Origin: Acidobacteriota bacterium
Lineage (GTDB): Bacteria > Acidobacteriota > Terriglobia > Acidiferrales > UBA7541
Length of the DNA: 12,523 bases
Direction of reading: 5' to 3'
Assembly (NCBI GenBank): GCA_003131705.1
Contig: PKUY01000249.1
Span: 21,026 to 33,548 of the forward strand
Positions within the stretch are counted from its first letter, which is position 1. Every line of letters starts with the position of its first letter. The notes beneath the pieces were generated by a model. That model was not told the DNA's origin. It was given only the letters and a program-made list of their open reading frames with translations, and made no database searches. The position numbers and the translations under genes were made by a program. This document shows positions 8,065 to 12,523 of this stretch, in pieces.

Positions 8065-8463
8065 GTAGCAAGCCCCTGCACTAATCCAGACTGCCCAGGA
8101 AATTCTGAGTAGGTTCGCCAGCTTCAAAATGACGGCACTACCGCCGGCGTGCGCTTCTTGACTTGGACCTGGGCCGCCGATAGACTCACAGTGTTCTTGG
8201 TAGAGGTGCGGGGGCCATGAGGAGCCGGGCCGGAAGTTCCGAGTAGCTTCGGAGTGCCGGGTGAAAGGGGCTTTCACGTAGTTGACTCCGCCGAAATCGT
8301 GTCGATAGCTGCTATCGAGGCGGTTGGTGGATAGGCTGAAAGGCTTATTCACTGTCATCCGTTGCAAAATGGATGGAGCGCTATCCAGGAGTGAAGACAC
8401 GAGCCGCGCCTCTCGCGTAACCTTCCCTTCTCTTTCCGTCCCATCCCAAAAGCAGGTAACGCA
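8065..8463. other. 399-base region without a convincing gene
   Basis: Both strands were read. A minus-strand frame is open across most of the stretch but shows no recognisable family and runs into dapE-like coding sequence on the other strand. The plus strand is broken by stops. The notable content is the run of three hairpins at 8230-8323. No tRNA-like cloverleaf, insertion-sequence ends or strong promoter was seen. The bases directly before ATG 8464 (CAGGTAACGCA) provide a weak AGG Shine-Dalgarno. Confidence 0.5.
8230..8323 (+). repeat. Cluster of three consecutive hairpins, possible structured RNA
   Basis: (1) CCGG 8230-8233 pairs with CCGG 8257-8260, enclosing TCCGA 8238-8242 paired with TCGGA 8249-8253. 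(2) GTGAAAG 8261-8267 pairs with CTTTCAC 8271-8277, loop GGG. (3) TCGATAGC 8302-8309 pairs with GCTATCGA 8311-8318, and is bracketed by CCGCC 8288-8292 and GGCGG 8319-8323. All pairings shown are perfect. No known RNA family was recognised. Confidence 0.45.
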
Positions 8464-11306: not shown

Positions 11307-12144
11307 TATAAACCGCGAAATCGAGCAGTTGTTCGACGCAAATCCCGGACGGTACACCGACGAGGATTTTCAACTATTTCAGAAATTCAAAGATGCGCTG
11401 AACGCAGGCGAGATTCGCGCCGCTGAGCCCGACTCCGCGCGCGCGAGCGGCTGGCGGGTGAATGCGTGGGTCAAGAAGGGCATCCTGCTGGGATTCCGCA
11501 TGGGCAAGATCGTCGATATGTCGATCGACGCGGCGCGCCAGCCTTTCTTCGACAAGAGTACCTATCCGGTGAAAACGTTTTCGGCGGAGTCGGGCGTGCG
11601 CATTGTTCCCGGCGGATCGAGCATTCGCGATGGCTGCTACGTCGGCAAGGGCGTCACGTGCATGCCGCCGATGTACATCAATGCGGGCGCGTACGTTGAC
11701 GAAGGGACGATGGTCGATTCGCACGCCCTGATCGGAAGCTGCGCGCGGATCGGAAAAAAGTGCCACATCTCGGCGGCCGCGCAGATCGGCGGCGTTCTCG
11801 AGCCGGTCGGGGCTCTGCCGGTAATCATCGAAGATGAGGTTTTAATCGGCGGAAACTGCGGCGTGTATGAAGGTACTGTCGTGAAGAAACGCGCTGTCCT
11901 TGGCACTGGCACGATCATCAACCGCTCGACGCCGATCTACGACCTGGTGACAGGCGCGGTCCACAGCGCGAGCGCCGATGAGCCGCTGGTGATTCCCGAG
12001 AACGCCGTAGTGGTCGCCGGCTCGCGAGCGATCTCGCACGGTCGCGGCAAGGAGTGGAATCTCTCGCTCTACACGCCTGTGATCGTGAAATACCGCGATG
12101 CGAAGACCGACGTGAAGGTGCAGCTTGAAGACTTACTGCGGTGA
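11293..12144 (+). CDS. dapD: 2,3,4,5-Tetrahydropyridine-2,6-dicarboxylate N-succinyltransferase
   Basis: This transfers succinyl from succinyl-CoA to tetrahydrodipicolinate, committing the cell to the succinylase branch. The protein is 283 aa. An N-terminal helical domain (1-about 95) includes [10 protein letters not shown] and [20 protein letters not shown] left-handed beta-helix of hexapeptide repeats runs about 100-245: [19 protein letters not shown], then [22 protein letters not shown] with the likely catalytic Asp142, then [15 protein letters not shown] with a Glu at 193. A C-terminal domain ends in [11 protein letters not shown] 11293 lies inside the dapA 3' end (14-base overlap) with AACAGG upstream, so translation is probably coupled. 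The frame is open further upstream within dapA, but [14 protein letters not shown] is the natural N-terminus. Confidence 0.95.
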
Positions 12145-12199
12145 ACTAGAGCGTGCTGTGTTTATCGAAACCCAGGCGACAGGCAACATCAGTCTGTGC

Positions 12200-12228
12200 T
12201 TGACAAGGGCGGATTCTTAACTTAATTT
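12200..12228 (+). promoter_or_regulatory. Candidate promoter for the his leader
   Basis: There is a perfect -35 box TTGACA at 12200-12205. The -10 is less clear: CTTAAT at 12221-12226 (4/6, 15-base spacer) or TAATTT at 12223-12228 (3/6, 17-base spacer). Transcription would start just before the leader ORF at 12239. Confidence 0.5.
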
Positions 12229-12238
12229 CGAGAGCGTT

Positions 12239-12310
12239 ATGAAACTGCTGCGGGCGCATCATAGTCACCACCATCATCACGTGAAACCGCTCCCGCGGCG
12301 GTGTGGCTAG
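12239..12310 (+). CDS. hisL: Histidine leader peptide (23 aa)
   Basis: ATG 12239 to TAG 12310 encodes 23 residues containing HHSHHHHH at positions 7-14, that is seven histidine codons (a mix of CAT and CAC) within eight. GAGAG at 12230-12234 can serve as a Shine-Dalgarno. The E. coli/Salmonella HisL peptide also has seven histidines. In that system, stalling of the ribosome at His codons when His-tRNA is scarce prevents the downstream terminator from forming. Here the ORF is followed after 25 bases by a textbook terminator and then hisI, so the same role is inferred. Beyond the His run the peptide does not resemble E. coli HisL (it continues VKPLPRRCG). The symbol is given by analogy of function. 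Confidence 0.85.
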
Positions 12311-12335
12311 CTGGAAATACAAAGCTGCACTTATC

Positions 12336-12376
12336 AGCCCGCTGGCGCGGAATGTGCCAGCGGGCTTTTTGTTTTT
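12336..12376 (+). terminator. Attenuator terminator before hisI
   Basis: AGCCCGCTGGC (12336-12346) pairs perfectly with GCCAGCGGGCT (12356-12366), and G-U and C-G pairs can extend it by two. A T5-G-T5 tract (12366-12376) follows. A competing antiterminator is possible: GCGG 12298-12301 and GCT 12306-12308, at the 3' end of the leader ORF, can pair with AGCCCGC 12336-12342 across a 4-base bulge. The T-tract abuts the GGGGAGA Shine-Dalgarno of hisI. Confidence 0.88.
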
Positions 12377-12387
12377 GGGGAGACGAA

Positions 12388-12523
12388 ATGGAACTCGATT
12401 TCGATAAGGAAAACGGACTGATTCCGGCCATCGTGCAGGATCATGTGAACGGCGAAGTTCTGATGCTGGGCTTCATGAATGCGGAAGCTCTGGCGATGAC
12501 GCAGGAGACCGGCTTCGTGACGA
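12388..12523 (+). CDS. hisI: Phosphoribosyl-AMP cyclohydrolase, N-terminal part
   Basis: This opens the purine ring of phosphoribosyl-AMP, the third step of histidine synthesis. Only 45 residues lie in the window. They show the family's N-terminal pattern: [20 protein letters not shown], then [20 protein letters not shown]. The metal-binding cysteines and any fused HisE (pyrophosphohydrolase) domain lie outside the window, so hisI and hisIE cannot be told apart. GGGGAGA at 12377-12383 is the Shine-Dalgarno for ATG 12388. The gene lies directly behind the histidine attenuator. Confidence 0.92.

Follow-up and report, generated by a model that had tools for sequence, protein, structure and literature searches.

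The histidine operon in the window, by which we mean the whole 12,523-nucleotide stretch of DNA analyzed here from a 3.9-Mb draft genome, is very probably controlled by a ribosome-mediated (leader-peptide) transcription attenuator that lies directly in front of hisI, the first gene of the operon. The parts of this his leader, their conservation, and their alternative pairings were established by reading, folding, and comparing sequences; from these features we infer that termination would depend on charged tRNA and on leader translation. The predicted leaderless start and the spread over the phylum go beyond what the first-pass annotation of this DNA had observed, and the spread became visible only with relatives.

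A His-rich leader ORF and an intrinsic terminator precede hisI

The first-pass annotation had described a TTGACA box, a 23-codon ORF with seven His codons in eight, an 11-bp hairpin with a T-tract starting 25 nt after the ORF stop, and hisI directly following. Direct reading located the box and the ORF, hisI was borne out by a PF01502 match over the cut-off, and the hairpin has both its T-tract and the 25-nt gap from the leader stop, but its stem is 13 bp by folding, not 11. The parts of the leader are as follows.

12200-12228, + strand: promoter-like site, TTGACA (12200-12205), 17-nt spacer, TAATTT (sequence and relatives)
About 12234-12237, + strand: predicted transcript start, 2-5 nt upstream of the leader ATG
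12239-12310, + strand: leader peptide ORF of 23 codons, ATG 12239 to TAG 12310, predicted to be leaderless (counterparts upstream of hisI in relatives)
12247-12257, + strand: segment A, 5' part of the leader ORF, pairing with 12289-12299 if ribosome-free (fold and covariation)
12257-12280, + strand: His codon run HHSHHHHH, 7 of 8 codons His (sequence)
12287-12298, + strand: segment B (CCGCTCCCGCGG), last codons of the leader ORF, pairing with either A or C, the 5' arm of the terminator
12336-12366, + strand: intrinsic terminator stem-loop, 13 bp (fold, covariation in 23 relatives)
12336-12348 and 12354-12366, + strand: terminator arms C and D, respectively; the part of C that pairs with B spans 12339-12350
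12367-12376, + strand: terminator T-tract (TTTTGTTTTT) (sequence)
12388-12523, + strand: hisI from its ATG at 12388 (PF01502 match and translation)

Against 200 dinucleotide shuffles, the leader RNA of the window folds with z = -3.94; for the stretch after the His run by itself, the gain over shuffles is modest (z of -1.84 and -1.51). A control scan for ORFs of 10 to 40 aa with at least 4 His in 8 gave 9 stray matches in 598,312 strand-bases of 47 fetched loci (one true leader was contained in the scanned loci), none of them with at least 5 His in 8. A generic His-run DNA pattern, tried as a search tool on 61 genomes, was far too common for use.

The genes hisG to hisA follow hisI on the contig, which places the leader at the head of a his operon with the order hisI-hisG-hisD-hisC-hisB-hisH-hisF-hisA (genes after hisI named from translations); used as queries, these later genes match his genes in other genomes. 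The hisI reading frame meets N right after the window end at 12523 (L002 1050-1051) and is incomplete in the assembly. Elsewhere in the window, an Rfam search found a Lysine riboswitch at 8193-8391 (+ strand; RF00168, 69.7 bits), and the genes 3' of it were read by eye as an M20 peptidase (dapE-like), dapB, dapA, and dapD, so that two different RNA switches would sit on adjoining lysine and histidine genes.

Rfam His_leader (RF00514) had no match in the window at the gathering threshold, in 12100-12523 at E<=10, or, at gathering, in the loci of 20 relatives; therefore, the window leader is not a member of that family. The only sub-threshold scores in 12100-12523 were Trp_leader (15.5 bits) and Thr_leader (14.3 bits), and no T-box match was found upstream of hisI in the window or in the 20 relatives' loci. 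The likeness to the E. coli and Salmonella his attenuator that had been proposed thus holds for the predicted mechanism and not for the Rfam family.

The leader is conserved in close relatives

Among 61 genomes (the window's own and 60 relatives), a PF01502 search found hisI in 41, and 32 of these carry a short ORF with at least 4 His in 8 and a terminator 5' of hisI. Two more (G045, G053) have a weaker leader with 3 His in 8 and a terminator. No leader was found in the remaining seven hisI genomes (G044, G048, G049, G052, G056, G057, G059); the contig of G044 starts 344 nt upstream of its hisI match, and hisF lies directly upstream of hisI in G052, G056, and G057. The 20 genomes without a PF01502 match include some that are more than 95% complete (G021, G029, G033, G037). 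Across families, the His run is kept while the remaining leader residues vary. The attenuation mechanism that the first-pass annotation had put forward came through this comparison of close relatives supported, and so did its acidobacterial lineage: the leader of G035, in the window's family, is the same as that of Terriglobia bacterium SRVP_33 (L044). In the same way, the leader stretch of G134 (family f11) is identical to that of Acidobacteriaceae bacterium palsa_246 (L088).

We also built an RNA model, R1, from 23 leaders of the window's family and its order, with terminator pairs only, and searched the same 61 genomes under strict filters with up to 55 candidates scored per genome. Among the candidates scored, full-length matches occurred in 31 genomes, namely the 23 training genomes and 8 others (G045, G047, G050, G053, G054, G055, G058, G060). 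In all 8, the R1 match lies no more than 200 bases from that of hisI. The 20 genomes that lack hisI gave no full-length match, and one of them, G003, gave a partial one. R1 missed G043, G046, and G051, which the script had scored as leaders.

A box close to GCACTCATC, just 5' of the terminator, is nearly invariant in the window's family (alignment columns about 101-112; about 12325-12336 in the window), and it extends the antiterminator pairing in G023, G026, and L054.

The probable attenuator occurs in other Acidobacteriota families

A scan of named genomes was evaluated for the best 80 of 594 loci, of which 22 are titled Acidobacteriota. Twenty of these 22 have the leader (19 by script, L043 by eye), including the isolates Terracidiphilus gabretensis and Granulicella sp. 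S156, and two (L051, L056) have none. Only 1 of the 58 loci not titled Acidobacteriota passed the scan for leader plus terminator (L059), a weak comparison given that hisI may be operon-internal in many of them. In that locus, from Armatimonadetes, the look-alike 5' of hisI (L059:3856-3983) combines a His-rich ORF starting with GTG, a terminator (-26.7 kcal/mol) located 22 nt past the ORF stop, and, by eye, a -10-like TAAAGT 8 nt before the start; its B:C pairing was reached by 0/200 shuffles in one test and gave p = 0.119 in the ungapped 12-mer test.

Over the phylum, hisI is present in 190 of 297 genomes. We sampled 69 of the hisI genomes, 30 unpicked and 39 hand-picked, and located hisI in 64. 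A His-rich ORF precedes it in 31 of the 64 loci, 30 of them with a terminator, a fraction that is biased because the picks favored f11 and short unfused hisI: the ORF was seen in 0 of 25 unpicked and 31 of 39 picked loci. Twelve of the picked loci with the ORF belong to f11, in the same class as the window, and 19 to families outside that class (f55, f33, f24, f85, f53, f42, f38). The probable attenuator also occurs in other families of Acidobacteriota, as seen in a partly hand-picked sample.

For 12 genomes whose hisI is located downstream in the operon or apart from it, we examined 9.5-15 kb upstream of hisI. In all but L193, hisF is directly upstream of hisI, and one genome, G243, has a His leader in front of hisG, its head gene; for L193, L196, and L200 the operon head may fall outside this stretch. 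Similar leaders in front of trpE, homoserine dehydrogenase, and ilvD were found at 0 of 35 loci in 10 genomes, where some loci were short upstream (253 nt in L232) and trpE was not matched in G000 or G054; accordingly, we do not propose attenuation as a general habit.

The leader ORF is predicted to be leaderless

A scan with a strict promoter consensus passed over the TTGACA site, since the -10 element TAATTT there matches at only 3 of 6 positions, and listed one minus-strand site instead. The promoter call consequently rests on relatives. For this comparison and those below, 52 and 34 leaders were combined, less L044, G134, and one double entry, to give 83 leaders, 19 of them named and one of these from Armatimonadetes. 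In 69 of the 83, a TANNNT box ends 8-10 nt upstream of the leader start codon, compared with 4.2% in mononucleotide shuffles; TTGAC ends 31-33 nt 5' of the start in 50, and SD-like 4-mers (GGAG, GAGG, AGGA) precede the start in only one. According to passages of PMC3160421, leaderless genes are marked by a TANNNT located about 10 bp upstream and occur in all three Acidobacteria genomes considered there, with an average of 13.3% of genes. The leaders show this combination of a -10-like box about 10 bp upstream and no SD, and by that rule the position of TANNNT predicts that the leader ORF in Acidobacteriota is leaderless.

The same attenuator might instead carry a conventional 5' UTR, with transcription arriving from a more distant upstream promoter such as by readthrough from dapD, in which case the -10-like box near the ATG would not set the start. 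We hold this to be unlikely. Its adherents could point to the site missing from the strict scan and to the 14 of 83 leaders without TANNNT at 8-10 nt, but six of these 14 are explained by a box at 11 nt (G020, G023, G026, G035) or at about 9 nt with an alternative start by eye (G038, L090), and both the excess of the box over shuffles and the near absence of SD-like 4-mers speak for a start close to the leader ATG.

The terminator arm has alternative pairings, and the predicted antiterminator strand changes frame

Folding revealed the mutually exclusive structures that the first-pass annotation had suggested looking for, as the three pairings A:B, B:C, and C:D. By script, 82 of the 83 leaders have a terminator, which starts 21-28 nt past the leader stop in 55 of the 82; G221 lacks one by script, and the pairing tests therefore used 82 leaders. 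In 23 relatives, 96% of the terminator cells are paired and 6 of 13 pairs have double changes, a result as high in 0 of 500 shuffles. For A:B, 78.7% of the cells are paired, and both this value and the covariation score beat all 500 shuffles, while 34 of 500 shuffles reach the same level of pairs with double changes.

The B:C pairing was tested in several ways. In a free register, complementarity had a mean z of -2.26 in 52 leaders (one duplicate, L044/G035). With ungapped 12-mers, p<=0.05 was obtained in 46 of 82 leaders, and with a longer C, to which up to 12 nt upstream of the terminator were added, in 54 of 82, where the sequences are related and the p values not independent. In 63 of 82, B paired better with its own C than it did on average with the Cs of other leaders, and with the longer C the median B:C duplex was -27.3 kcal/mol versus -21.95 for the terminators. 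For the window itself, 0/200 shuffles reached the B:C value in one test, and p was 0.025 in another and 0.10 with the longer C. When the window's register was fixed, B:C displayed no covariation in the 23 relatives (shuffles as high in 236/500 for cells paired and 492/500 for covariation score); the B:C register differs among genera.

At equilibrium, the terminator prevails in every state of the full RNA tested, including the one in which A is covered (P 0.92); antitermination would therefore have to be kinetic, with B:C formed before the D arm is complete. When the RNA ends at 12358, the mean B:C pairing probability over C is 0.73-0.91 with A covered and 0.23 with A free.

Segment B contains the RNA motif CGUGYCnGCGG, with C or U at some positions; searched as [CT]GTG[CT][CT]NG[CT]GG, it is present in 33 of 83 leader ORFs. 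Among the leaders with this motif, it starts at codon phase 1 in 15 of 16 from f1 and at phase 2 in all 9 from f11, so that one family reads it as PCPRR and another as SVSA-like residues. The same motif in differing codon phases indicates that the RNA, not the peptide, is kept.

These data also bear on the idea that the His-rich ORF encodes a functional small protein, such as a metal-binding one, with the hairpin as its own terminator and hisI transcribed separately. His runs can bind metals, and the ORF does possess a promoter-like site and a terminator of its own, but a protein would hardly account for a peptide that is not kept between families outside the His run, for a B motif that shifts phase between f1 and f11, for the position in front of hisI (or of hisG in G243), or for an ORF end complementary to a terminator arm, and we consider the idea highly improbable. 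That a His-rich frame lies by chance next to an unrelated terminator of an upstream transcript, terminators being common between genes, is barely credible in view of the low rate of His-run ORFs in the control scan and of an ORF and terminator that are conserved and covarying in relatives.

Discussion

The leader thus has an ORF rich in codons for the amino acid of the operon, an intrinsic terminator between this ORF and the first gene, an antiterminator incompatible with the terminator, and an A:B pairing that keeps the antiterminator from forming, with fixed-register B:C covariation absent within the family. According to the mechanism that we propose, RNA polymerase would start at the leader ATG or a few bases before it, and the ribosome would begin on the leaderless 5' end. 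With ample charged tRNA-His, the ribosome would read through the His run to the stop, where it would cover B or leave A:B free to form; the C:D terminator would then form and transcription would halt ahead of hisI. Under a shortage of His-tRNA, the ribosome would stall at the His codons and cover A, B would pair with C before the D arm is complete, and transcription would run into hisI.

On balance, we favor the broader view that Acidobacteriota have a class of his attenuators that evolved independently and extends over the whole phylum, with leaderless mRNA on which the ribosome would load nearly as soon as the 5' AUG emerges from the polymerase, and with the antiterminator strand inside an ORF whose frame has moved while the RNA was kept. 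The missing Rfam match hints at an origin independent of the proteobacterial his leader. The window leader offers a concrete job and a testable design for an attenuator in Acidobacteriota, and it would bring a classic form of control to bacteria other than its classic hosts. Because attenuation needs coupled transcription and translation, a conserved attenuator argues for coupling at the his operon, and a leaderless start would make this operon a natural system in which to ask how early coupling sets in.

In the open-licence literature searched, we found neither a his attenuator in Acidobacteriota nor a leaderless his leader, though Lopatovskaya et al. 2010, cited in PMC4833913, might already list Acidobacteria. 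The 2010 survey PMC2965389, in the portion available, reports almost no predicted attenuator with associated function in Acidobacteria, and the excerpt of PMC8632094 leaves Acidobacteria unmentioned. For Actinobacteria, a section of PMC1262725 states that no conserved RNA structure lies upstream of histidine operons. His leaders have been reported, in extracts of PMC9413887, for Proteobacteria and three Bacillota groups (the B. cereus group, Peptostreptococcaceae and Lutispora, and Erysipelotrichales), and hisZ and hisS* of bacilli have His-leader attenuators (PMC2965389, in part).

The proteobacterial his attenuator (hisL, RF00514) resembles the window leader in its His-codon ORF and in a terminator before the first his gene. 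The peptide of the window leader is presumably unlike HisL, and the window differs in its hisI-first operon, its predicted leaderless start, and its minimal set of A:B, B:C, and C:D pairings. Mutually exclusive pairings are likewise described for the proteobacterial system in parts of PMC9413887. The Bacillota his attenuators, which belong to another phylum and are likened to the window here by their partial descriptions, share the His-run leader, the terminator, the alternative antiterminator, and prediction by comparison, and in the same extracts of PMC9413887 they too have no RF00514 match. In its predicted start, the window leader is closest to trpL of Sinorhizobium meliloti, described in part of PMC7298713 as a leaderless attenuator leader, and to the ilvBNC leader of Corynebacterium glutamicum, discussed in part of PMC11857589 as a leaderless mRNA; as far as these texts go, both leader mRNAs start at or near the AUG, and they serve other amino acids in other phyla.
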